DNA of 64,000 bases from Methanofollis fontis (GTDB taxonomy: Archaea; Halobacteriota; Methanomicrobia; Methanomicrobiales; Methanofollaceae). Below are positions 24,650 through 40,035 of this stretch, one piece after another. The stretch is taken from positions 248,001 through 312,000 of the forward strand of contig NZ_PGCL01000001.1 in the NCBI RefSeq assembly GCF_004297185.1, written 5' to 3'. The translations under genes were made by a program, and so were the position numbers. Below the pieces are notes generated by a model. The model did no database searches, was not told the DNA's origin, and was given only the letters and a program-made list of their open reading frames with translations. How positions within the stretch are numbered: the stretch's first letter is position 1; each line of letters opens with the position of its first letter.

Positions 24650-25243
24650 ATGGACGAGATCAGGGCTCATGTGCAGGCGGCGCTCGGGGAGGCCGGCGCC
24701 CACGGCCTCGACCACACCCTCCGGGTCACCAGCCTCTGCGAGGAGATCGGGCGGGCCGAGGAGGCAGATATGGAGATCCTCATCACCGCCGCCCTCTTCC
24801 ACGACATCGCCCGCCCCCTGGAAAAGGAAACAGGCATCCCCCACGAGGAGGAGGGGGCGCGGATCGCCGCCGATTACCTCCGCTCCAGGGGCTGGGACGA
24901 ACGGCGGGTGGAGGCGGTCGCCGCCGCCGTCCGCACCCACCGCTACCGCTCGGACCGCCGACCCGGGGGTCTGGAGGCGCAGATCCTCTCTGACGCCGAC
25001 AAGCTCGACGCCATGGGGGCGGTCGGGATCGCCCGCACCTTCCTCAGGGCCGGCGAGCACGGCGGCGGGATCCCGGACGGCACCGAACACATCCACGAGA
25101 AACTCCTGAACCTCCGGGAGCGGATCCGCACCCCGGCCGCGCGGGAGATCGCCGAACAGCGGCACGCCTTCCTGGAGGAGTTTGTCGGAAGGCTGGAAGG
25201 GGAGATGGGGGCGGATCAGCCCTCCGCACCCCTCCGGAAATAG
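24650..25243 (+). CDS. HD-domain hydrolase
   Basis: A 197-residue protein of the HD superfamily. Metal ligands are H in GAHGLDHTLRV (~22), HD in AALFHDIARP (~55), and D in ILSDADKLDAMG (~123); KLDAMG is characteristic of the YpgQ/YedJ-type phosphohydrolases that cleave nucleotide or other phosphates. ATG 24650 begins the fold; the longer open frame from 24578 would pass through the TetR operator and is unlikely. The last 28 nt overlap the 3' end of the convergent histidine kinase gene. Confidence 0.85.
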   Translation: MDEIRAHVQAALGEAGAHGLDHTLRVTSLCEEIGRAEEADMEILITAALFHDIARPLEKETGIPHEEEGARIAADYLRSRGWDERRVEAVAAAVRTHRYRSDRRPGGLEAQILSDADKLDAMGAVGIARTFLRAGEHGGGIPDGTEHIHEKLLNLRERIRTPAAREIAEQRHAFLEEFVGRLEGEMGADQPSAPLRK

Positions 25244-27069
25244 CCGGGGGGCACCCGGATCACAAACCGCGCCCCCTCACCCGGGGTGCCGCACTCCTCG
25301 ATCGCCGCCCCGGTGATCGCCAGGATCTCCTGCACCAGATAGAGCCCGAGGCCATGGTTCCGGCCATACCCCTGCCTGAAGATCAGGCCCTTTTCCTCCT
25401 CCGCCACCCCCTCGCCATCGTCCTGGCAGACGATCGAGAGTGCACCGTCCTCCCCGGCCTCCGCGGAGAAGCGGATGGAGGTCACGTGCCCGCCGTGGAT
25501 CACGGCATTGTCCATGAGGTTCGAAAACACCCTGGGCAGCATCGGGTCGGCATAGACCTGCACCCCCTCCAGGTCCGCCGTCACCGCCACGCCTGCGAAC
25601 TGCGGTGAGGAGCGGGCATACCTCTGGATGATCTCCCCGGGTGACTGCCAGAGCGGTTGTTTCACTCCCATGTCCTGGTAGTCCCGGCTGAACTCGATGT
25701 CCTGCCTGATACCGGAGAGCAACGCCCCCAGGTTCTCCAGATAGAGCGTGCGTTTTTCCTCCGGGGAGTCCGCGATCAGCTCCAGGTACATCACCGCCGC
25801 CGTCACTTCGTTCATGATGTCGTGGCGGGTGATGCTGTTGAGAATATTCAGCTTCTGGTTCGCCCGCTCCAGGGCCGCCGCCGCCCGTTTCCGCTCGGTG
25901 ATGTCCTCTCCCAAACTGAGGGTGCCGGTGACCGCACCAGACTCGTCCCTGAGCAGGGCAGTATGCCAGAGGATCTGGCGCTCCTCCCCGCCGGCGGTGA
26001 TCACCCGTCCCTCCACCTCCTGCCCGGCAGCCCCATCCCCGGCCATCAACCGGAAAAAGAGCGTTCGCATCTCCTCCCGGCCTTCGGGCGGCAAGAAGCG
26101 CTCGAACCAGTCGGCTCCGACCATCTCCTCCCCGGCATACCCCAGGATCTCGCACGCCCGGCGGTTGACCAGGCGCACCCGCCCCTCACGGTCGAGCACC
26201 AGGAAGATCACGCCGGAGACCGAGAGATACTGCCCCAGGCGGTTGCGCTCCTCCCGCACCTCCCGCTCCCGCTCGGCCAGGTCCCGGAAGATCACCTGAT
26301 AGGGCCTCCGGAGACCGGTGACCACCACCCCCTGGTAGATCAGGGCAAAGGAGACGATCTTGCAGAGGTGGCCAACCAGGTTCGAGAAACCGTAGACGCT
26401 CACATAGAAGGTGAAGGCCAGTTCGGCGGCGATAGAAAACCCGATCGCCAGCAGCACCAGCGAAAAGACGCGGGGCTCGAAGGCGGACCGGTGCCGCCAG
26501 AGGAGGAGGGCGGAGAGGGCGAAGAGGGCGGAGATCAGGTACTCGCTCCCAACCTTGAACGGGGTCAGCCCCGAGCCCACGATATAGCAGTCCGGGAAGA
26601 GGCCGGCAAAGATCAGGACGAGCAGCAGCAGGCTGACGGCGGCATATACCAGGAATTCGATTCCGGGGCGCACCCACCGCCCGAAGAGCAGGGCGGCGGT
26701 GACCAGGGTGACCGACTCCAGGTAGCGGGCGGCGATCCAGAGCTGCGTCGGGAGGTTGGCGTCATACCCCACAAAGATGTTCATGCCCGCATAGGCCAGG
26801 GTGTGGACCAGGTCGATCCCGCCGATGAAGAGGTAGGCCACCCCGATGAAGAGGAGATAGGTGTTGTCGATATAGGCGCGGCTGTTCCAGGCGATGATGA
26901 AGATAGCACCGGCGATGAGGATGCTGAAGAGTTCGGCCAGGGTATGGAAGAGCAGATAACTGTAGAGGGATGTGAGGGCCGTCAGCGCCAGAAAAAGGCA
27001 GAGCACTCCGAAAAACAGGCGGTCACCGGCATCATTCCCGGACGGGAGGGGCGGAGAGGCGGCGGTCAT
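25216..27069 (-). CDS. MASE3-PAS sensor histidine kinase
   Basis: A 617-residue membrane sensor. Seven helices at ~15-270 form a MASE3 domain (FHTLAELFSILIAGAIF, IGVAYLFIGGIDLVHTLAY, LWIAARYLESVTL). A PAS domain at ~290-405 is followed by the dimerisation helix with phosphoacceptor His in NSITRHDIMNEVTAA, then the HATPase with VFSNLMDNAVIHGG (N box), CQDDGEGV and YGRNHGLGLYLVQEI. Its ATG overlaps the stop of the response-regulator gene (ATGA at 27066), so the two are one two-component operon. The ligand is unknown. A related kinase is at 55285-57054. Confidence 0.92.
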   Translation of the reverse strand: MTAASPPLPSGNDAGDRLFFGVLCLFLALTALTSLYSYLLFHTLAELFSILIAGAIFIIAWNSRAYIDNTYLLFIGVAYLFIGGIDLVHTLAYAGMNIFVGYDANLPTQLWIAARYLESVTLVTAALLFGRWVRPGIEFLVYAAVSLLLLVLIFAGLFPDCYIVGSGLTPFKVGSEYLISALFALSALLLWRHRSAFEPRVFSLVLLAIGFSIAAELAFTFYVSVYGFSNLVGHLCKIVSFALIYQGVVVTGLRRPYQVIFRDLAEREREVREERNRLGQYLSVSGVIFLVLDREGRVRLVNRRACEILGYAGEEMVGADWFERFLPPEGREEMRTLFFRLMAGDGAAGQEVEGRVITAGGEERQILWHTALLRDESGAVTGTLSLGEDITERKRAAAALERANQKLNILNSITRHDIMNEVTAAVMYLELIADSPEEKRTLYLENLGALLSGIRQDIEFSRDYQDMGVKQPLWQSPGEIIQRYARSSPQFAGVAVTADLEGVQVYADPMLPRVFSNLMDNAVIHGGHVTSIRFSAEAGEDGALSIVCQDDGEGVAEEEKGLIFRQGYGRNHGLGLYLVQEILAITGAAIEECGTPGEGARFVIRVPPGYFRRGAEG

Positions 27070-28775
27070 GCCCCCTCCAGAGGGCGGCGGGCCGGCACCT
27101 GTTCAGGATCAGGGAAACGGACAGAGACCGCTGTTCCCCCCTCCCTGACGACGGAGAGGCTGCCATGGAGCCCTGACCGGACAAGCTGGAGGACGCCCTC
27201 CGGGATCTCCCGGCCATCCCCACCCTCCACCGTCAGGAGATACCCCTCGATACCCCTCTGCAGCCCGATGCGGAGCCGCATCCCGGCCCCATCCCGCAGG
27301 GCGGAGGTGATCAGTTCGTTCAGCACCAGAGTGACGGCGATCGCCGTCTCCTGGTCGAGGCTGATCTCCTCCACGTCCAGGTCATGGGCCCCCGCGCCAG
27401 GGCACGCCGCCGCCAGCGCACTGAAATGGGGGCGCATCTCCACCCGCCCGTTTTTAGTGCTCTCATAGACCAATGAGAGCGCCCGCACCCTGCCTTCGCA
27501 CTCCTTCAGGTGCGCCTCCGCATCCCCGGGATCAGAGGCGTCCGGCCGGATCAGCCCGGAGAGGGCCCGGAGGCCCTTCAGCACCCGGCGATCGGCCCCC
27601 CCAAGAAGGGCGGATTTCTCCTTGAGGGTTTCGAGGAGATCATCCTCGGTCTGTCTGCGCTGCGTGGTCTCGACGCAGAAGACAACGGTGGTGAGGTCGT
27701 GGGTGACGGAATCATGGTCCACGACCGCCGAGAGGTCGAGGCGATAGGCCGATCCGTCCGGGCGGACGGCCGACACCTCGCCGTGCCACTTCCCGTCCGA
27801 GCGGAGGGCCGGGGAGATCGTCTCTTCCCAGACGTCCCGACTCAGGATGTCCGCGAGATGGACCGTCGTCGCCGGATCCAGACCCATGATCCCCCTGGCG
27901 GCGTCGTTGAGAAAGGTGACCGAACCGTCCTGTTGTGCGATCAGGCAACCGACAAAGACCGACTCAAGGGTGCGCTTGAGGAGGCACTGTTTCCTCTGCT
28001 CTGTCGAGGGGCGGGCGACGGCGACATACATCCAGATCGCACCCGAACTCTCGGCGATCGGGGAGATGGAGAGGTCGATCGGGACCGTCATCCCGTCCTT
28101 TCGCAGGCACCGAAACGGAAAATGGTCGAGGCGGTTTCCCCCGTGAATATGGGCCGCGATCTCCCGGGCGTCCGCCTCACACCCCCGTGGGATCCATTCG
28201 TTGATCTGCCGCCCCACGGCCTCCCGGGCGGGAACCCCGGTGAGGAGGGATATCGCCGGGTTCCAGGAGGTGACGGTGCCGTCCGGAGTGAAAAAGACGA
28301 TCAGGTCGTCCGAGGTATGAAAGACCCGGCAGATCAGGCCATGCTCCCGTTCCCGCGCCGCCTCCGCACGCTGCCGCCCCACGGCGTTCCGGATCAGGTG
28401 GGCGAGTTCGGCAGAGGTCACCTCCAGATCAGGTCCCTTGCGGTGGTAGCCGGCGGCACCCATCCCGAGCGCCCGGCGGATCAGGTCGTCGTGGGAAAAA
28501 CCAGTGCTGAGGATGAATGGCATGTGGGGGTGATGCTCCTGAACGTGATCGAGAAAACAGAGCCCATCCATCACCGGCATACGGTAGTCAGAGACCACGG
28601 CATCATAGATGCGCTCGTCCAGCAGGCGAAGGGCGCGATCGCCGGATCGTGCGGTTTCAACGCGTATATCCCCGGTCTCCTCGAGATAGCACTTTGTCAG
28701 GTCGAGAAAATCGGGATCGTCATCGATCACCAGCACTGTTATCGGCCTGGAGGGAGAATCGGCGTCAGGAACCAT
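27066..28775 (-). CDS. Response regulator with PAS domains and degenerate kinase-like end
   Basis: A 569-residue protein: receiver domain at ~10-125 (VLVIDDDPDFLDL; phosphoacceptor Asp in DAVVSDYRMPVMDG; STGFSHDD), PAS domain(s) at ~150-385, and a C-terminal HisKA_2/HATPase-like region. The stretch that normally holds the phosphoacceptor His (E-x-HHRVKNN in the family) reads LLGGADRRVLKGLRALSGL, without His; the N box ends as LVLNELITSALRDG. The C-terminus may therefore bind but not transfer phosphate. ATG 28775 follows GGACGTGAT. It is the upstream gene of the pair with the MASE3 kinase. Confidence 0.88.
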   Translation of the reverse strand: MVPDADSPSRPITVLVIDDDPDFLDLTKCYLEETGDIRVETARSGDRALRLLDERIYDAVVSDYRMPVMDGLCFLDHVQEHHPHMPFILSTGFSHDDLIRRALGMGAAGYHRKGPDLEVTSAELAHLIRNAVGRQRAEAAREREHGLICRVFHTSDDLIVFFTPDGTVTSWNPAISLLTGVPAREAVGRQINEWIPRGCEADAREIAAHIHGGNRLDHFPFRCLRKDGMTVPIDLSISPIAESSGAIWMYVAVARPSTEQRKQCLLKRTLESVFVGCLIAQQDGSVTFLNDAARGIMGLDPATTVHLADILSRDVWEETISPALRSDGKWHGEVSAVRPDGSAYRLDLSAVVDHDSVTHDLTTVVFCVETTQRRQTEDDLLETLKEKSALLGGADRRVLKGLRALSGLIRPDASDPGDAEAHLKECEGRVRALSLVYESTKNGRVEMRPHFSALAAACPGAGAHDLDVEEISLDQETAIAVTLVLNELITSALRDGAGMRLRIGLQRGIEGYLLTVEGGDGREIPEGVLQLVRSGLHGSLSVVREGGTAVSVRFPDPEQVPARRPLEGA

Positions 28776-29001
28776 GCGTGTATCACGTCCGGGGGACCGG
28801 CAGCGGTGCGGCGCGATCCATACACCCATGTGAGGGCACCACCCAATAAAGGTTGTTTATCAGGTATTTCCCGCCGAACGCACGATCCAGAGGGGGCTCC
28901 TGGCGCATTCTGCGACAATGCAGAGAGCACATGGGCCGGGCCGCACTTTCGCACCCCGCACACGCCTCCCCCTGATAACGGTCGGAGGCCCACCACCACC
29001 C

Positions 29002-29619
29002 ATGGAGGACTCCTATCCGTTCCCCCTGTATTTCAGGCGCCAGACTTTCACCGTCGTCATCGCCGGGGCCGACCTGATCGCACCCTCGGTGCAGGGTTTC
29101 TGCCGCCGGCGGGGGGTCTACCCCATCTACATCTGTGGCAGGCGTCACCCCCTCCTGGACGTGCTGAGCGGGGGGATGGGCAACGCCCTGGTCCGCCCGG
29201 TCCCGGACGCCGCGGGGGTGCTCGCAGAACTGGAGGGGATCGGGCGGGGGGCAGCGGTGATCGAGTACGATCCCGCCTGGCCTGAGGAGGACGGGGACGC
29301 CGCCGGATGCCTGGCCGTCCGCCTCCGCTGCCTGGTCCACGAGGGAGGGGCCACCATCGTGCTCGTGACCACCCGCCCGGACGCCGCCGCCCTGGACCTG
29401 ATCGCACCGGCCGACCGGGGATATTACCTGGAGACGATCCCGGTGAACCGGCGGGGGCAGGACCTGCCGCCCGAGCAGACGAGCCTCGCCGACTACGGGG
29501 TGCAGGGGTTCAGCCCCCCGACCAGCCCTCCGCGACCTCCAGCAGGTCCAGGGGGCGCTCCTCCACGACCGCCACCTCCCCGGCATACACCTGCCCGCTC
29601 CCGCCGTCCAGGGAGATGA
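29002..29619 (+). CDS. Orphan methanogen protein, paralogue of 36280
   Basis: A 205-residue cytosolic protein of unknown family. Residues ~5-140 align with the protein at 36280-36762 (shared outline F/I-RR-x-TFT, VYPIYICGRRHPLLD / PVYFCGRTRPVLD, V-EYDP / VEHDP, VTTRPD / VATRQD). Its strand-helix pattern recalls a Rossmann or RecA-like fold without an obvious P-loop. The last ~36 residues are a Pro/Arg/Ala tail read across the 3' end of the convergent PPDK-like gene (overlap 110 nt) and may be an accidental extension after the loss of an earlier stop. Not seen as part of a known pathway. Confidence 0.6.
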   Translation: MEDSYPFPLYFRRQTFTVVIAGADLIAPSVQGFCRRRGVYPIYICGRRHPLLDVLSGGMGNALVRPVPDAAGVLAELEGIGRGAAVIEYDPAWPEEDGDAAGCLAVRLRCLVHEGGATIVLVTTRPDAAALDLIAPADRGYYLETIPVNRRGQDLPPEQTSLADYGVQGFSPPTSPPRPPAGPGGAPPRPPPPRHTPARSRRPGR

Positions 29620-31087
29620 CGTCCCCCTCGGAGAGGGACTCACCCCCGATCAGGCAGCGGTGGTTTTTCCGGTCGATGCTCAGACCCGCACAGTTCACGA
29701 TGCAGACCCGCCCCATCTGGCGGGCGACCACGGCGGCATGGGAGGTCCGCGACCCCCGGGCAGTGAGCACGCCCGCCGAGAGCCCGACCACCGGCAGATC
29801 GTCCGGGGAGAGGATATCGCAGACATAGATCACCGGACCCCGTTCGGCCGCCCGCTCCGCCGTCTCCGCCGAGAACACCGCCGCACCCGAGACGACACCG
29901 CCCGAGGCCGGTGTTCCGGCGGCGAGCGGAGGGGTGTCCGGCACCGGCACCCGCACCAGGAGGGTGTCCAGGTCCACCTCCCGGAGGCGCTCGCGCCCCT
30001 CGGCGGCGGTGATCACCCCCTCCCGCCAGAGGTCGACGGCGATCCGGAGGGCGGCCAGCGGCGCCCGTTTGCCGCTCCGCGTCTGGAGCAGATAGAGGGC
30101 GCCCTCCTGCACCGTGAACTCGAAGTCCTGCATATCCCGGAAATGCGCCTCCAGGATCCGGGCTGTCCCGGCGATCCGGCGGCAGACCTCGGGCATCGTG
30201 CGGCGCAGCCCCTCCTCGGAGGCGGCTGAGACGGCGCCCGAGACCACGTCCTCCCCCTGCGCCCCGAAGGCGAAGTCCACCAGGGCCCCGGGCTCCCCGG
30301 TCCAGGGGTTGCGGCTGAAGCCCACGCCGGCACCCGAACGCGGCCCGATGTTTCCGAAGACCATCGCCTGCACGCAGACGGCGGTGCCCCCCCCGTCGCG
30401 GATCAGGTTCATCTGGCGGTAGGAGAGCGCCCTCGGCCGCATCCAGGACTCGAGCACCGCCACCGTCGCCGCCGTCAGCTGGGCATGGGCGTCCGCCGGG
30501 AATGCCGCCTCCCCCTCCTCCTCCACGGCCGCCCGGACAAGATCCCGGAGCGAGAACGAGTCCAGCCCGGCCAGGGAGGGGACGCCCGCCGCCTGAAGCG
30601 CCCGCTGCTGGAGCCCGGCATAGACGGCGGGGTCGCGGCCGAGCACCGTGGTGCCGAAGTTCTGCACGAACCGCCAGCAGGAGTTCCAGGCAAACCGCGG
30701 GTTGCCGGTCAGGGCGATGAGGCCGCGCACCGCATCCGGGGTGAGCCCGACGTCCAGCACCGTCTCCATGATCCCGGGCATCGAGAGGGGGGCGCCCGAA
30801 CGGACCGAGACCAGGAGGGGACGGGCGCCGCCGAACGAGAGATCGGTGGCCTCCTCCAGGAAGGCGATCCCCCGCCCGAGCAGCCCGGGGACGTCGGGGG
30901 GGAGCACGCCGCCGTCCCGGTGGAACTCCTCGCAGATCTCCACGTTCAGCACGAATCCCGGCGGCACCGGTATGCCCAGGGCGGCCATCTCTGCCAGCCC
31001 CGCCGCCTTGTTCCCGAAGGCGCCGGCCGGCACCGGTTCGCGGGCCGTATGCCCGAACATCGCCATACGGGGCATCTCTTCCCTCAC
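29510..31087 (-). CDS. Pyruvate phosphate dikinase-like protein lacking the PEP domain
   Basis: A 525-residue protein matching the N-terminal 60% of PPDK: ATP-grasp domain (FGNKAAGLAEMAALGIPVPPG; LVSVRSGAPLSMPGIMETV; NPRFAWNSCWRFVQ; MVFGNIGPRSGAGVGFSRNP; FAFGAQGEDVVSG; MQDFEFTV; LLQTRSGKRA), then the swivelling phosphohistidine domain (LTARGSRTSHAAVVARQMG, catalytic His at ~450). It stops at DGGSGQVYAGEV, just before the PEP/pyruvate TIM barrel, which is absent. Its phospho-acceptor cannot be pyruvate on the same chain. GTG 31087 (GGTGAAGGAGT before it) or ATG 31075. It lies 13 nt downstream of the PhoU-like gene, so both form an operon. Confidence 0.88.
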   Translation of the reverse strand: MREEMPRMAMFGHTAREPVPAGAFGNKAAGLAEMAALGIPVPPGFVLNVEICEEFHRDGGVLPPDVPGLLGRGIAFLEEATDLSFGGARPLLVSVRSGAPLSMPGIMETVLDVGLTPDAVRGLIALTGNPRFAWNSCWRFVQNFGTTVLGRDPAVYAGLQQRALQAAGVPSLAGLDSFSLRDLVRAAVEEEGEAAFPADAHAQLTAATVAVLESWMRPRALSYRQMNLIRDGGGTAVCVQAMVFGNIGPRSGAGVGFSRNPWTGEPGALVDFAFGAQGEDVVSGAVSAASEEGLRRTMPEVCRRIAGTARILEAHFRDMQDFEFTVQEGALYLLQTRSGKRAPLAALRIAVDLWREGVITAAEGRERLREVDLDTLLVRVPVPDTPPLAAGTPASGGVVSGAAVFSAETAERAAERGPVIYVCDILSPDDLPVVGLSAGVLTARGSRTSHAAVVARQMGRVCIVNCAGLSIDRKNHRCLIGGESLSEGDVISLDGGSGQVYAGEVAVVEERPLDLLEVAEGWSGG

Positions 31088-31100
31088 ACTCCTTCACCCC

Positions 31101-33041
31101 CTACCTGCTGAAGCTCTCCAGCGTCATATCCCGCATGATATGGGCGGCCTTGCGCTGGGCGTTGGTCGCCCGCTCAATGCTGCATGCGCACTCCATGGCG
31201 AGCCAGAACTCCCGGCAGCCGCCCCCCCTCGCATACAGCGCCTTCTGAAACCCCCTCAGCGCCTCGTCGCACTCCTCCTCGAGCAGGATCAGGCGGTCGA
31301 TCGAGGAGAGCAGCGGCTTCATATCGGCTCTGCTCCCGCTCTGGTGGAACTCGCCGGCGGCCATGACCATCCGCAGCAGTTCGCGGCTCCCCTCCAGGGC
31401 GATCCCGGCAAGGCTGGCGAGTTCGGCGACCACCCCCGCATCGGCCTCGAAGGACCGGGGCAGGGAGGTGTAAAAGGAGGTCTGCTCAAGGGCGTCGATG
31501 ACGTCGTCCATTGTGCCGATGAGGGGGGCGAAGAAGGTGGATACGTTCATCCGTTCGGCGAGCGAACGCACCGAACTGACGATGCCGTCGGCGCTGCGCT
31601 CCCATTCCTTCACCCGCCGGGCACTGCGGGCAAGCCCCTCGCCGTCCGCCCCGCTCATCACCGAGAGGAAGGAGGCCTGAAGGTCGGTGGCCGCCTCGAC
31701 GACATAGGTGGCGTGCTCCTCGCAGAGGTCGATGAGGCGTTCGTGGACCGACCTGAAGTAGCGGGCCAGATCGGCCCTGATCTCGTCCTGGATCAGGAGG
31801 TGCGAGCGCCGCTCCGCCAGCCCCTCCTTCGCCGTCCTGAGCACGCCCTTGATGAACTCCACGGCGTTCTCCCGCCCCAGGATCCGGTGGAGGGGCTCGC
31901 CGTAGCGCATGTTCGTGCTCCCCACCACCTCCAGGGCACTGTAGATCAGGGTCTCCCCGCCGAGCTGGAGAAAGGCGCGGTGCCCGATCTCGTTCTCGGC
32001 CGCCCACCCGAGCACGGCCAGCACGTCCTGCCTGGGCAGGAAATAGCGGAGGCGTTTGCGGGCGCGGTTCCAGTCGATGAGAAAGACAAGCCTGGAGCCG
32101 AGGTGACGGAGAAACGCCTGCAGGTCCTCCCCGTCCCGGGCGGCATAGGTGCCGGTGGTCATCAGGTAGGTGCCCTTCTCAAAGCCCTCGCCGGCCGCAC
32201 GGGAGCGGGTGTCCTCCCAGTCCATCTCCCACCCCTCGAAGAGGCCCCGGAAGAAGTCCAGCCTGGGCATGTGGATATCGGTATAGACCACCGATGCCCG
32301 GCGGTCCCGCACATAGATGACGAGCACGTGGGCGTCGGTGAGCCCGATGTCGTTCTGGATCACCAGGCGGTCGTCGGTGCGGGTGGCGGTGGTGCCGAGA
32401 CCCGGATGATCGAACTTCAGGGAAGCGGTGCGGTTGAGCCCGGCCATGAACGCCGCCACCAGGGGGCGATCGGCGTCCTTGAGCAGGGAGGCGCGTGCCC
32501 CATCGATCGTCTCGGAGGCGAGGCCCGCCTGGAGGGCGTTCAGCCGCCGGTGCAGGTCGAGCACCAGCAGGTGGAGGCTGTCGCCGGCGGTGCGGTCCCC
32601 GGAGGTGAGGCGCCGGATCGTCTCGCCGCTCAGGATCTCGTTTTCGGCGGCGGGCAGATCGGCGAGGAGGGCGGAGAGCCGCGCTTCGAGCGCCCCGTCC
32701 CCCTCCTCCCCCATCAGCACCGGGCGGGCCATCGTCACCATCGCCTCCCTGACGGCGGCCATGATCTCGGCAGCGGCCGGGATGCGGTAGGTATCCGGGC
32801 CCGGGCGTTCGGCGCCGGCGACGACCTGGTCGAGGAGGGCGTTCTCGACCCCGGCCGCCTCCCGCTCACCCCTGAGCCCGGACCACTCCTCCTCGGGGGC
32901 GTCGGCGTGCGCCTTCGCCGCCTGAAGGAGCGTAAAATAGTATTTTACCCGGCCGTTCGCAACGAGAGCGGCATTCACATACTCAGGGATCAGGATATCC
33001 GATTCGCCGATCTCCCGGATGATCGAGGTCTTTCCGGTCAT
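31101..33041 (-). CDS. Large protein with C-terminal PhoU/DUF47-like domain
   Basis: A 646-residue cytosolic protein. Residues 1-430 are unrecognised: a helical N-terminus (TGKTSIIREIGESDILIPEYV), then an alpha/beta part with HVLVIYVRDRRASVVYTDIH and LVFLIDWNRARKRLRY. Residues ~440-646 form helical bundles with the PhoU/DUF47 pattern (RRVKEWERSADGIVSSVRSL; APLIGTMDDVIDALEQ). DUF47 proteins accompany phosphate transporters. It is expressed with the truncated PPDK-like protein downstream, so both may act on phosphoryl transfer or phosphate sensing. A shared TATA box (33085-33092) lies 44 nt upstream of ATG 33041. Confidence 0.72.
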   Translation of the reverse strand: MTGKTSIIREIGESDILIPEYVNAALVANGRVKYYFTLLQAAKAHADAPEEEWSGLRGEREAAGVENALLDQVVAGAERPGPDTYRIPAAAEIMAAVREAMVTMARPVLMGEEGDGALEARLSALLADLPAAENEILSGETIRRLTSGDRTAGDSLHLLVLDLHRRLNALQAGLASETIDGARASLLKDADRPLVAAFMAGLNRTASLKFDHPGLGTTATRTDDRLVIQNDIGLTDAHVLVIYVRDRRASVVYTDIHMPRLDFFRGLFEGWEMDWEDTRSRAAGEGFEKGTYLMTTGTYAARDGEDLQAFLRHLGSRLVFLIDWNRARKRLRYFLPRQDVLAVLGWAAENEIGHRAFLQLGGETLIYSALEVVGSTNMRYGEPLHRILGRENAVEFIKGVLRTAKEGLAERRSHLLIQDEIRADLARYFRSVHERLIDLCEEHATYVVEAATDLQASFLSVMSGADGEGLARSARRVKEWERSADGIVSSVRSLAERMNVSTFFAPLIGTMDDVIDALEQTSFYTSLPRSFEADAGVVAELASLAGIALEGSRELLRMVMAAGEFHQSGSRADMKPLLSSIDRLILLEEECDEALRGFQKALYARGGGCREFWLAMECACSIERATNAQRKAAHIMRDMTLESFSR

Positions 33042-33084
33042 GGTCCCGCACCCCCAGGCATCGGAGAGAACAACCCCTCCCATA

Positions 33085-36279: not shown

Positions 36280-36762
36280 ATGAACAGGCGACCCTGCCCG
36301 CCCCTGCACATCAGGCGGGCCACCTTCACCCTTCTTGTGGCGCACCGGGAACAGATCGTCCCATCCATTCGGAAACTGGGACGCCACCTCGGGCCGCCGC
36401 CGGTGTATTTCTGTGGGCGCACCCGTCCGGTCCTGGACCTGATGGGCGGGACCTATGCGGAGGGGGTGGACGCCTGGCCGGTGCGGGACGCCGCCGAACT
36501 CCTCGCCATGCTCGAGGAGGTGGGGCGGCTGACAATCGTGGTGGAGCACGACCCTGCCCTCTATTACCCGGACCCCGAGCGGGCGGCGGCGGTGGGCCGC
36601 GCCCTTGCCGAACGGGTGCAGATGACCTGCGCCACGGTGGCCTATGTGGCGACACGGCAGGACGACTACCTGGAGGCGATCGGGCGCCAGGCGGGAGCGG
36701 TGGGGGACGCCTGGCGCGACCCCCTGCCTGAGGGTCAGCAGCGGCTCTTCGGGCAGGGCTGA
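36280..36762 (+). CDS. Orphan methanogen protein, paralogue of 29002
   Basis: A 160-residue cytosolic protein, compact version of the one at 29002-29619. Shared sequence runs from LHIRRATFTLLVA through PVYFCGRTRPVLDLMGG, LTIVVEHDPALYYP and VAYVATRQDDYL. The strand-helix alternation, with an acidic end to one strand (VVEHDP), suggests a Rossmann/RecA-like fold without a P-loop. No conserved catalytic set is apparent. It ends 7 nt before the convergent DNA methyltransferase gene. A TATA-like element was not clear. Family unknown. Confidence 0.75.
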   Translation: MNRRPCPPLHIRRATFTLLVAHREQIVPSIRKLGRHLGPPPVYFCGRTRPVLDLMGGTYAEGVDAWPVRDAAELLAMLEEVGRLTIVVEHDPALYYPDPERAAAVGRALAERVQMTCATVAYVATRQDDYLEAIGRQAGAVGDAWRDPLPEGQQRLFGQG

Positions 36763-36769
36763 GAGGCGT

Positions 36770-37756
36770 TCATCGACCGTCCCCGGTTCGTTTGAGCGCC
36801 CGCTCCAACGACCACCGCCCCCGTCCGAACTCCTGCTGCAAAACGGCGATGCTCGCCTTCCGGGTCTTCCCCCCATCCCGGAGTTCGGCATACCGCCGCT
36901 CCAGCCGTTCCAGGTCGGCGCGGCTCCAGCGCTTCCCCTGGTTTCTCAGGGGGTCGATCACCGGTTGGCGCAGGGACGCCAGGAGATCCCCGGGCGTGAT
37001 TTCGGCGAGGGCAGGAGCGCGTTTGGCAAAGATCGTCTCCGAGACCTCGAATCCGACCGTCCGTCGGTTCAACCCGATGGCCGTGCGGGCGGTCGAGCAC
37101 CCGCCCAGAAAGAGGTCGCAGACCAGGTCGCCCTCGTCGCTGCTGTACTGGATCATCCTGCCGAGCAGGGCCGTCGGGAGTTCGTTTTTGTTCTTCACCA
37201 TTCCGGGCTTGTAATGACGGTTGATCGCCCAGACGTCCTCCCGGTCCCGGTAATTGAGTGACCCGCCATCGTCCGAGGCCTCGTTCGCCCCGTAGCGGCA
37301 CTCCAGGTTGAAGGTCCGCCGCCCCCCCGGCTTTTCATAGAAGAGGATGTGATAATGGGACGAGATGTATTTTTTCCGGGTATAAACCCCGAAATTATAT
37401 TTCCAGATGATATGGTTGACCTCCCTCAGGGAGGTCTGGCGGAGGGCGTGGAGGATGTGATAGAGGTTCGTGTAGCCCGAGACAATATAGATCGAACCGC
37501 CGGGGCGCAGAACCCGCTCGGCCTCGAGGATCCAGTCCAGGCTGAACTCCCCGTAGGCCCCGGCCGGCACCTCGACATACCCGCCGACCACGCAGGTCTC
37601 GTCCCGGTTGTAGTGGCGGTGGAGGCGGTCGCCGTCGATGCCGTACGGGGGATCGGTGACGATGAGGTCCACCGACCCGGAGGCCAGATGAGCTCTCGCT
37701 CCCGTGACGCAGTCCTGGTTGTAAAATCGGCCGTACGGCGTGATCACCGGTTCCAT
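36770..37756 (-). CDS. Site-specific DNA methyltransferase (amino-methyltransferase)
   Basis: A 328-residue methyltransferase of the N4-cytosine/N6-adenine beta class: the catalytic motif IV is LIVTDPPYGIDGDRL near residue 34, before the cofactor motif I in the C-terminal half (GDLVCDLFLGGCSTARTAIGLNRRTVGFEVSE; positions ~210-245), as in M.HindIII/CcrM-like enzymes. A C-terminal helical domain (KRWSRADLERLERRYAELRDG) may be the DNA-recognition part. No restriction enzyme is adjacent. ATG 37756 follows GAGGGTG; GTG 37762 is an alternative. Confidence 0.88.
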   Translation of the reverse strand: MEPVITPYGRFYNQDCVTGARAHLASGSVDLIVTDPPYGIDGDRLHRHYNRDETCVVGGYVEVPAGAYGEFSLDWILEAERVLRPGGSIYIVSGYTNLYHILHALRQTSLREVNHIIWKYNFGVYTRKKYISSHYHILFYEKPGGRRTFNLECRYGANEASDDGGSLNYRDREDVWAINRHYKPGMVKNKNELPTALLGRMIQYSSDEGDLVCDLFLGGCSTARTAIGLNRRTVGFEVSETIFAKRAPALAEITPGDLLASLRQPVIDPLRNQGKRWSRADLERLERRYAELRDGGKTRKASIAVLQQEFGRGRWSLERALKRTGDGR

Positions 37757-37997
37757 CCGCACCCTCGGAGACTACCGGAGGGGTTGGTGCCGGAGGGGTC
37801 TAATTCTTTCGGCGAACAGGGCAAAAAAAGGAGGTTGGATGAAGAGAGGGAAGACGGGTTCGTCCTCTCCGACGGAACGGATCAGGGACCCCGGCGCCCC
37901 ATGGCGGTATGCAGGCGCGGAGGTGTCGGTCTGGTCCCGGCAGATTCCCCCCTGCCGGGTTCGTAGCCACAGCACGTGGCATACATGATCAGACGAC

Positions 37998-38338: not shown

Positions 38339-38475
38339 AGGCTACCAAAAATTTTTTTATGAAATATATCCCGACCAAACATAAACCCTGCGATCTGTTC
38401 CTGGACCGAACCGGAGACGGCACCGCCGGATGCCAACCTTCAACACCCCCACCCCCCCAGTATGAGAGGGACCTC

Positions 38476-40035
38476 GTGGACGCCACCGACGCACTCCTGA
38501 AAAAATACTGGGGGTATACCTCGTTTCTGCCGCACCAGCGCGAGATCATCGCATCGGTGCTGGAGGGGCGCGACACCCTGGCAGTGCTGGCGACCGGGGG
38601 CGGAAAGTCCCTCTGCTACCAGCTCCCCGCCCTGGCCCTGGGCGGTCTCACCCTGGTGGTCTCCCCCCTCCTCTCGCTCATGAAGGACCAGGTCGACGAC
38701 CTGACCCTGCGGGGGGTGCCGGCCGCCGCCTGCACCGGCTCCCTCAAGCCTGAGGAGAGGGAGGAGATCAGAAGAAGCCTGGAGGAGGACACCCTCAGGC
38801 TGCTCTTCATATCGCCGGAGAAATGCATGCAGCCCGCCGTGCTGGCATCCCTCCGCCGCCTCCCGGTCCGCCTCATCGCCATCGACGAAGCGCACTGCAT
38901 CTCCGAATGGGGGCACAATTTCCGGCCCGAATACCGGCACCTCAACGGGCTGAGACGGCACCTCCCGCATGTCCCCATCGTCGCCCTGACGGCCACCGCC
39001 ACTCCCGACGTCAGGGAAGACATCTGCCGGCAGCTCGGTCTCTCAGGGCCCGCCGTTTTCGTCGGCACCTTCAACCGCCCTGAGGTCCGCTACCGCGTCC
39101 TCCCGAAGAGCAACCCGACGGCCCTGCTCCTGGCATGCATCAGGGAGCACCGGAACGAATCCGGGATCGTCTACTGTTCTTCCCGGGAAAAAACAGAAGA
39201 GATCGCCGGAGTCCTGGGCAGATACGGCTACCGGGCGCACGCCTATCATGCCGGCCTCGATACGCGTACCAGGGAGCGGGTGCAGGAGGACTTTCTCCGC
39301 GGGCGGGTGCGGATCGTCTGCGCCACCGTCGCCTTCGGGATGGGCGTCGACAAGCCCGACGTCCGCTATGTGGTCCACTACGACCTGCCCGGGAGCCTGG
39401 AGTGCTACTACCAGGAGAGCGGGCGTGCAGGACGGGACGGGCGGCCCGCCGAATGCGTCCTCTTCTACGACCCCGCGGACCACGAGAGGATCCGCTCCAT
39501 GATCGACCGCGGCGGTCCGGGCGGGCGGCACCGGCGCACAGCCCTCCGGAAACTGGAGGAGATGCGAGGGTATTGCGAGACCGCGGCGTGCAGGCGCAAA
39601 TATCTCCTGAACTATTTCGGCGAGGCATATGCGGCCGAGACCTGCGGGCGGTGCGACACCTGCGAGGGGCCCGGCGGGAGGATCGACGGCACCGAATGCG
39701 CCAGACGGATCATCGCCTGCGTGGAGCAGCTGCCCGGAGACCCGGGCATCGACCTGATCGCGGACGTGCTGCGGGGGTCGAAGAACGCAACCGTCCGGAA
39801 CAACCGCTTCGACCTCCTTCCGGCCTACAATACCGGCAGGGAGTGGAGCAGGCGGCACTACCGTGCGATCGTGTCCGACCTGATCGGGCAGGGCTACCTG
39901 GCCCGGAGCGGAGGGAGGAGGCGGGGCGTCCGCCTGACCGAAAGAAGCGCCCGGATCACGGAGGGCGGGGAGCGGGTCACGGTGCCGGCGGAGCAGGAAA
40001 GAAGGGAAGAAAACCGGAAAAATCAGCAAAAATAG
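38476..40035 (+). CDS. recQ: RecQ-family DNA helicase
   Basis: A 519-residue 3'-5' helicase. Motifs in order: Walker A VLATGGGKSLCYQLPAL (~35-50), SPLLSLMKDQVDDL (Ia), DEAHCISEWGHNFRPEY (II), ALTATATPDVREDI (III), IVYCSSREKTEEIAG (IV), ATVAFGMGVDKPDVRYVVHYD (V, in part) and QESGRAGRDGRPAEC (VI). A Zn-binding set follows (C-RRKYLLNYFGE, CGRCDTC), then a winged-helix-like RQC region. Start: GTG 38476 is preferred (GAGAGGGACCTC upstream; protein then begins at the fold), although an ATG at 38359 would add 39 low-complexity residues. Confidence 0.93.
   Translation: MDATDALLKKYWGYTSFLPHQREIIASVLEGRDTLAVLATGGGKSLCYQLPALALGGLTLVVSPLLSLMKDQVDDLTLRGVPAAACTGSLKPEEREEIRRSLEEDTLRLLFISPEKCMQPAVLASLRRLPVRLIAIDEAHCISEWGHNFRPEYRHLNGLRRHLPHVPIVALTATATPDVREDICRQLGLSGPAVFVGTFNRPEVRYRVLPKSNPTALLLACIREHRNESGIVYCSSREKTEEIAGVLGRYGYRAHAYHAGLDTRTRERVQEDFLRGRVRIVCATVAFGMGVDKPDVRYVVHYDLPGSLECYYQESGRAGRDGRPAECVLFYDPADHERIRSMIDRGGPGGRHRRTALRKLEEMRGYCETAACRRKYLLNYFGEAYAAETCGRCDTCEGPGGRIDGTECARRIIACVEQLPGDPGIDLIADVLRGSKNATVRNNRFDLLPAYNTGREWSRRHYRAIVSDLIGQGYLARSGGRRRGVRLTERSARITEGGERVTVPAEQERREENRKNQQK

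Follow-up and report, generated by a model that had tools for sequence, protein, structure and literature searches.

The pyruvate phosphate dikinase (PPDK)-like gene studied here in the archaeon Methanofollis fontis encodes a protein that stops short of the PEP barrel, and it directly follows a gene for a larger partner protein that ends in a PhoU/DUF47-like helical bundle. The partner and the short PPDK form a deeply conserved unit, present in both archaea and bacteria. The pair is often found among genes of polyphosphate (polyP) metabolism, which suggests an undescribed phosphate-handling machine. The explanation we prefer, to which we give about an even chance of being right, is that the two proteins make up a two-subunit, PPDK-derived dikinase, in which a phosphohistidine is formed from ATP and the phosphate then passed to or via the partner, in the service of polyP metabolism. 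The features of the pair are collected in Table 1; positions are those of the window, by which is meant the whole stretch of 64,000 nucleotides that was analysed.

Table 1. Features of the partner and short PPDK genes in the window
Feature	Position	Strand	Description
Partner, 646 aa	31101..33041	(-)	New N-terminal region and C-terminal PhoU/DUF47-like bundle
Partner residues 1-413	31803..33041	(-)	Unrecognised helical and alpha/beta region
Partner residues 414-646	31104..31802	(-)	PhoU/DUF47-like helical bundle
Intergenic gap, 13 nt	31088..31100	(-)	Contains AAGGAG, a Shine-Dalgarno-like motif, upstream of the short PPDK
Short PPDK-like kinase, 525 aa	29510..31087	(-)	ATP-grasp (~23-340) and swivelling phosphohistidine domain (~390-505); PEP barrel absent

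The two proteins

An earlier note on this DNA, made from the sequence alone, had described the smaller protein as holding the ATP-grasp and phosphohistidine domains of PPDK and ending where the barrel should begin, and the profile searches bear this out. The PPDK model TIGR01828 matches residues 23-510 with 467 bits, the match ending at the onset of the barrel; Pfam detects PPDK_N (2e-39) and the PEP-utilizers His domain (6e-18), and the same scan gives no match to the barrel family, PF02896. The TIGR01828 score is well below the equivalog cut-off of 843, which places the protein outside that family, and the 403.7 bits obtained with the 534-position PPDK model NF004531 / PRK05878 likewise lie below its cut-off of 456. 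With the barrel absent and the score under the cut-off, the short PPDK is, as judged from its sequence, not a PPDK. Its start codon is a GTG, though translation could just as well begin at an in-frame ATG at 31075.

Residues K27, R96, R139, D321, E323, Q335, R337 and H450 of the short PPDK are invariant across 19 paired members. They align to K22, R92, R135, D321, E323, Q335, R337 and H455, respectively, of the Clostridium symbiosum PPDK, which serve ATP binding and phosphoryl transfer in that enzyme. By these residues the short PPDK is an intact ATP-to-histidine half-enzyme, with His450 as the residue predicted to be phosphorylated.

The open reading frame of the partner spans 31101-33083, and the start at 33041 is favoured by the conserved N-terminus of its relatives, MTxKxxIIxELGE. 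It had been described as 646 residues long, with an unrecognised N-terminal part and a C-terminal PhoU/DUF47 bundle, and on both counts the description has held. The match to PhoU_div/DUF47 (PF01865, residues 441-636) is marginal by sequence, at 24.5 bits against a gathering score of 24.4, but clear by predicted fold: the model of this part (pLDDT 86) superimposes on 3l39, 2iiu and 2olt with a TM of ~0.82 and a probability of 1.00, and confirms that the C-terminus is a genuine PhoU/DUF47 bundle. In an alignment of 52, the bundle has invariant E(D)xxxD motifs at E481-D485, D512-D516 and E588-D592, which are putative metal-binding sites; E(D)xxxD is the signature motif of PhoU (PMC5686610).

The conservation is far denser in the core of the partner, residues 136-360, where 47 of 225 positions in the alignment of 52 are near-invariant, the figure for the PhoU part being 14 of 233. 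Invariant in this core are the motifs QNDIG, TDxHxxR and DWNxxRK and the histidines H157, H164, H212, H238, H257 and H354. The model of the first ~410 residues is confident (pLDDT 88), and for residues 1-440 no relative was found in Pfam or the PDB by profile searches or structure comparison. A Foldseek comparison of the N-terminal domain with the PDB and with viral models gave only weak and mixed matches, all with E > 0.02, to the large glutamate dehydrogenase, ACT-like proteins, YbjN and phage proteins of little-known function; these matches being what they are, and the profile searches empty, no fold is claimed. A stand-alone, diverged relative of the N-terminal region is encoded in one further genome (G148, locus L066, 3665-4669); the key motifs, the PhoU domain and the PPDK neighbour are all absent there, and no functional clue to the domain was gained from it.

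Conservation of the pair

The two genes had been placed 13 nt apart, a gap that was confirmed in the window, and across 80 loci the median distance between partner and PPDK is 10 nt. A scan for close relatives with the single window protein gave no matches; the alignment-based scan of 84,980 species genomes gave 476 relatives of the partner, the best 80 of which were kept. The earlier note had made its proposal depend on whether the genes are conserved as neighbours, and they are: a short PPDK lies immediately 3' of the partner in 81 of the 83 loci inspected, which span methanogens, Ca. Methanoperedens, Nitrososphaeria, Thermoplasmata, Proteobacteria, Desulfuromonadales and Planctomycetota, while the two exceptions are contig ends, stopping 55 and 128 nt past the partner. 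All of the downstream PPDKs in the 81 loci end within 25 residues of the end of the query. Clustering of the neighbouring genes detected no constant third member.

Within the order to which M. fontis belongs, a strong partner match was obtained in 32 of 199 genomes, and all of those in which the locus was read and the contig continues have the short PPDK directly 3' of the partner. The other PPDKs of the order are full-length (open frames of ~920-1000 codons), ~40% identical and unpaired; genome G119 carries both a short paired PPDK and a full-length one. In a tree, 48 paired PPDKs form a single clade (SH-aLRT 100), to the exclusion of full-length PPDKs and of other short forms, and the distance matrices of partner and PPDK are closely correlated (r = 0.91, with 0 of 999 permutations as high). 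Only one of 12 genomes of the window's genus, that of the M. fontis window itself, has the pair, a distribution suggesting that it was either acquired by transfer or lost repeatedly.

The pair is currently annotated merely as "pyruvate phosphate dikinase" or "PEP/pyruvate-binding" together with "DUF47" or "phosphate transport regulator"; in two plasmids, the entries read "DUF47 family protein" / "phosphate transport regulator" and "PEP/pyruvate-binding protein". One copy of the pair lies in a record titled Thermoleophilia bacterium (L113), an actinobacterial MAG, where it groups with a euryarchaeal sequence and adjoins PPX and CHAD genes; this contig may be misbinned archaeal DNA.

In the window, the pair is flanked by genes for paralogous small proteins at 28918-29619(+) and 36280-36762(+), which are 40% identical over 121 residues and have no Pfam match; the first of these converges on the short PPDK gene, whose 3' end it overlaps by ~110 nt. 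Beyond it, at 25216-28829(-), lie two adjacent PAS-type histidine kinase-like genes that overlap at their junction, the one at larger coordinates carrying an N-terminal receiver domain. On the other side are a DNA methyltransferase-like gene with a DPPYG motif (36770-37762(-)) and then, on the opposite strand, a RecQ-like helicase gene (38359-40035).

Polyphosphate genes around the pair

Longest-ORF calling is unreliable for neighbours in GC-rich DNA, and the neighbouring genes were therefore called by codon usage and then Pfam-scanned, with a caller that closely reproduced the annotated genes of Methylocella. The Ppx-GppA and CHAD families were prominent among the neighbours, and PPK1, PPX, CHAD and the pair were located in 50 pair-bearing genomes. 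A gene of one of these three polyP families lies within 10 kb of the partner in 15 of the 50, where ~1 would be expected under random placement (Poisson ~2e-13, a figure that ignores shared ancestry as well as the post hoc choice of the families, which were picked after the neighbours had been seen). In the remaining 35 no such gene is found within that distance, many of the assemblies being fragmented. The 15 include Methanomicrobiales, Methanosarcinales, Ca. Methanoperedens, Nitrososphaeria, a Pelobacter, Thiobacillus-like bacteria and a planctomycete. The phosphate context first suggested for the pair is supported by the PPK1/PPX/CHAD neighbourhood, and sharpened by it to polyphosphate.

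Two of these loci look like operons. In Methanolinea (L102) the genes for PPK1, CHAD, PPX, the partner and the short PPDK follow one another on one strand; in Ca. Methanoperedens (L121) the order, also on one strand, is ppk1, CHAD, a metallophosphatase/HD protein, partner and short PPDK. In the planctomycete (L154) a CHAD domain and the partner share one reading frame uninterrupted by a stop codon, although there is an internal ATG where the partner usually starts. CHAD domains are demonstrated polyphosphate binders (PMC6537752).

Among the 50 pair-bearing genomes, PPK1 is found in 43, PPX in 44 and CHAD in 46. Within the order, 31 of the 32 genomes with the pair have PPK1, versus 85 of 167 others (Fisher 2e-7); when tested within three families the co-occurrence has a p of ~0.01, and in the order as a whole it is therefore partly phylogenetic. 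The nearest PPK1 gene in the M. fontis genome itself is 112 kb from the pair, and the link to polyP therefore comes from the relatives and not from the window. That genome has two PPK1 genes (G000 C4:65509 and C1:393357), and any PPK1 at all is found in 4 of 12 genomes of the genus.

Two assemblies of Nitrososphaeria have a PPX gene within 10 kb of the pair and no detected PPK1. Polyphosphate granules have been reported from ammonia-oxidising archaea, in Nitrosopumilus maritimus, without known polyP genes (PMC11082331). That the pair fills the polyP gap of these archaea is offered as a lead, not as a result.

Possible functions and known systems

In the two-subunit dikinase that we prefer, the short PPDK would bind ATP, phosphorylate its own His450 and release AMP and PPi (or Pi), a step proposed because its active site is intact and because VadK (Rv1127c) of Mycobacterium tuberculosis, also a short PPDK, is autophosphorylated with Mg-ATP on the equivalent histidine in the absence of barrel or pyruvate (PMC13400623). 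The short PPDK thus probably works like VadK in its first step. The mobile phosphohistidine domain would then dock on the partner rather than on a PEP barrel, and the highly conserved N-terminal alpha/beta domain of the partner would supply the acceptor site. The phosphoryl group might go to partner-bound phosphate or polyphosphate or, in reverse flow, come from it, and the PhoU-like, putatively metal-binding bundle would sense or bind the (poly)phosphate. The role in polyP metabolism is suggested because of the gene neighbourhood, the one gene fusion and the co-occurrence.

The main rival is a regulatory kinase-sensor pair, which is possible though clearly less probable than the two-subunit dikinase: the short PPDK would act as a VadK-like histidine (di)kinase, phosphorylating or holding other proteins, with the partner as its phosphate-responsive regulator instead of a catalytic acceptor. 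VadK, which has the same architecture, autophosphorylates on His422 and binds methylcitrate-cycle enzymes, and it is more soluble when co-expressed with its operon partner Rv1126c (PMC13400623); PhoU proteins, too, are regulators, and the bundle of the partner retains their E(D)xxxD motifs. However, conservation in the partner peaks in the domain that is not PhoU, and its many invariant His, Asp, Arg and Lys residues point to an active site more than to a sensor. Nor does a constant third gene present itself as a candidate target, and the VadK-like proteins sampled from plasmids lie outside the clade of paired PPDKs, with no DUF47 match in the single upstream protein examined.

A specific and stronger form of our preferred explanation, whose probability is contained in that of the latter, makes the pair an enzyme of polyP outright. 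That it is a dikinase joining ATP, AMP and PPi to polyP through phosphohistidine, able to make polyP or to turn AMP back into ATP with PPi and polyP, including in archaea that lack PPK1, and that its acceptor domain has a new fold, is rather unlikely. As an alternative ATP-polyphosphate enzyme parallel to PPK1, forming polyP from ATP, or ATP from AMP, PPi and polyP, the pair is improbable on our reckoning. This agrees with the operon-like arrangements that include ppk1, CHAD and ppx, with the granules of N. maritimus and with the reversibility of the PPDK reaction, ATP/Pi <-> AMP/PPi (PMC13400623). PPK1 is undetectable in 7 of the 50 pair genomes, including the two Nitrososphaeria, on a count that covered PPK1 alone. 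Yet most genomes with the pair do have PPK1, so that the pair does not just stand in for it.

The PPDK superfamily is known to evolve by swapping the acceptor domain, as in rifampin phosphotransferase and PigC, and the pair could accordingly be a small-molecule phosphotransferase unrelated to polyP, with the N-terminal domain of the partner binding a metabolite and the polyP genes being neighbours for other reasons. Some bacterial copies of the pair, e.g. in Methylocella, adjoin genes of fatty-acid oxidation, and others redox genes, as might then be expected; but the polyP neighbourhood is ~15-fold over expectation and recurs in archaea, Proteobacteria and Planctomycetota, and with the CHAD domain in frame with the partner in the planctomycete as well, this reading too has a low probability. 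Least credible by far is an ordinary PPDK that has been split into two genes or is decaying, which was rejected, despite the close likeness to PPDK over both domains, since a search of the M. fontis genome found no separate barrel gene, the outcome that the earlier note had named as refuting its own proposal (the barrel family occurring there only within a 790-aa PEP synthase-like protein), the partner is no barrel by sequence or by predicted fold, the catalytic residues are invariant in the 19 members and the architecture is constant in more than 80 loci.

The literature search, with most subscription journals outside it, returned no paper that joins DUF47 with PPDK or describes the pair, and within that literature the N-terminal domain of the partner, the paired clade and the link to polyP appear undescribed. 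A PPDK without its barrel is not new in itself, barrel loss being already known from VadK (PMC13400623). Taken together with VadK as the other case, the pair suggests that loss of the PEP barrel and gain of a partner arose more than once in the PPDK family, and such repeated loss makes a general question testable, namely where the phosphate of the phosphohistidine goes. If the polyP link is true, an unrecognised player is added to polyP metabolism, and the pair becomes a concrete candidate for how some archaea with incomplete known gene sets handle polyP.

Of the known systems, VadK is like the short PPDK in having the ATP-grasp and phosphohistidine domains of PPDK with their catalytic residues, no PEP barrel in cis or elsewhere, and an operon with a partner of obscure function. 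VadK is actinobacterial and linked to the methylcitrate cycle (PMC13400623); the short PPDKs of Rhodococcus and Streptomyces, used as stand-ins for the M. tuberculosis sequence, fall outside the paired clade, and the 202-aa protein encoded upstream of the VadK-type gene in Rhodococcus gives no DUF47 match. Further barrel-less short PPDKs outside the paired clade are encoded on plasmids of Skermanella (L087), where the gene is directly 3' of one for pyruvate kinase, and Azospirillum (L090), where pyruvate kinase is a few genes off; these look like a further independent barrel-less lineage.

PPDK itself (TIGR01828) shares with the short PPDK the first ~510 residues and the catalytic residues through the phosphohistidine, but has in addition the PEP/pyruvate barrel. 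The DUF47/PhoU_div proteins (PF01865; 3l39, 2iiu, 2olt) share the C-terminal fold of the partner and its E(D)xxxD metal motifs, whereas the partner has ~410 extra N-terminal residues with the new domain, and a short PPDK as neighbour; a stand-alone DUF47 protein met in the analysis adjoins a phosphate permease. With the polyP operons of CHAD, PPK1 and PPX the pair has a common neighbourhood in several lineages and the one CHAD-partner fusion, though by Pfam scan neither of its genes is homologous to PPK1, PPX or CHAD. Finally, in rifampin phosphotransferase and PigC/RedH a phosphohistidine made from ATP is, as proposed here, handed to an acceptor site other than that for pyruvate; in those enzymes the acceptor is fused to the rest, whereas in the pair it would be provided by a separate protein, unrelated in sequence.
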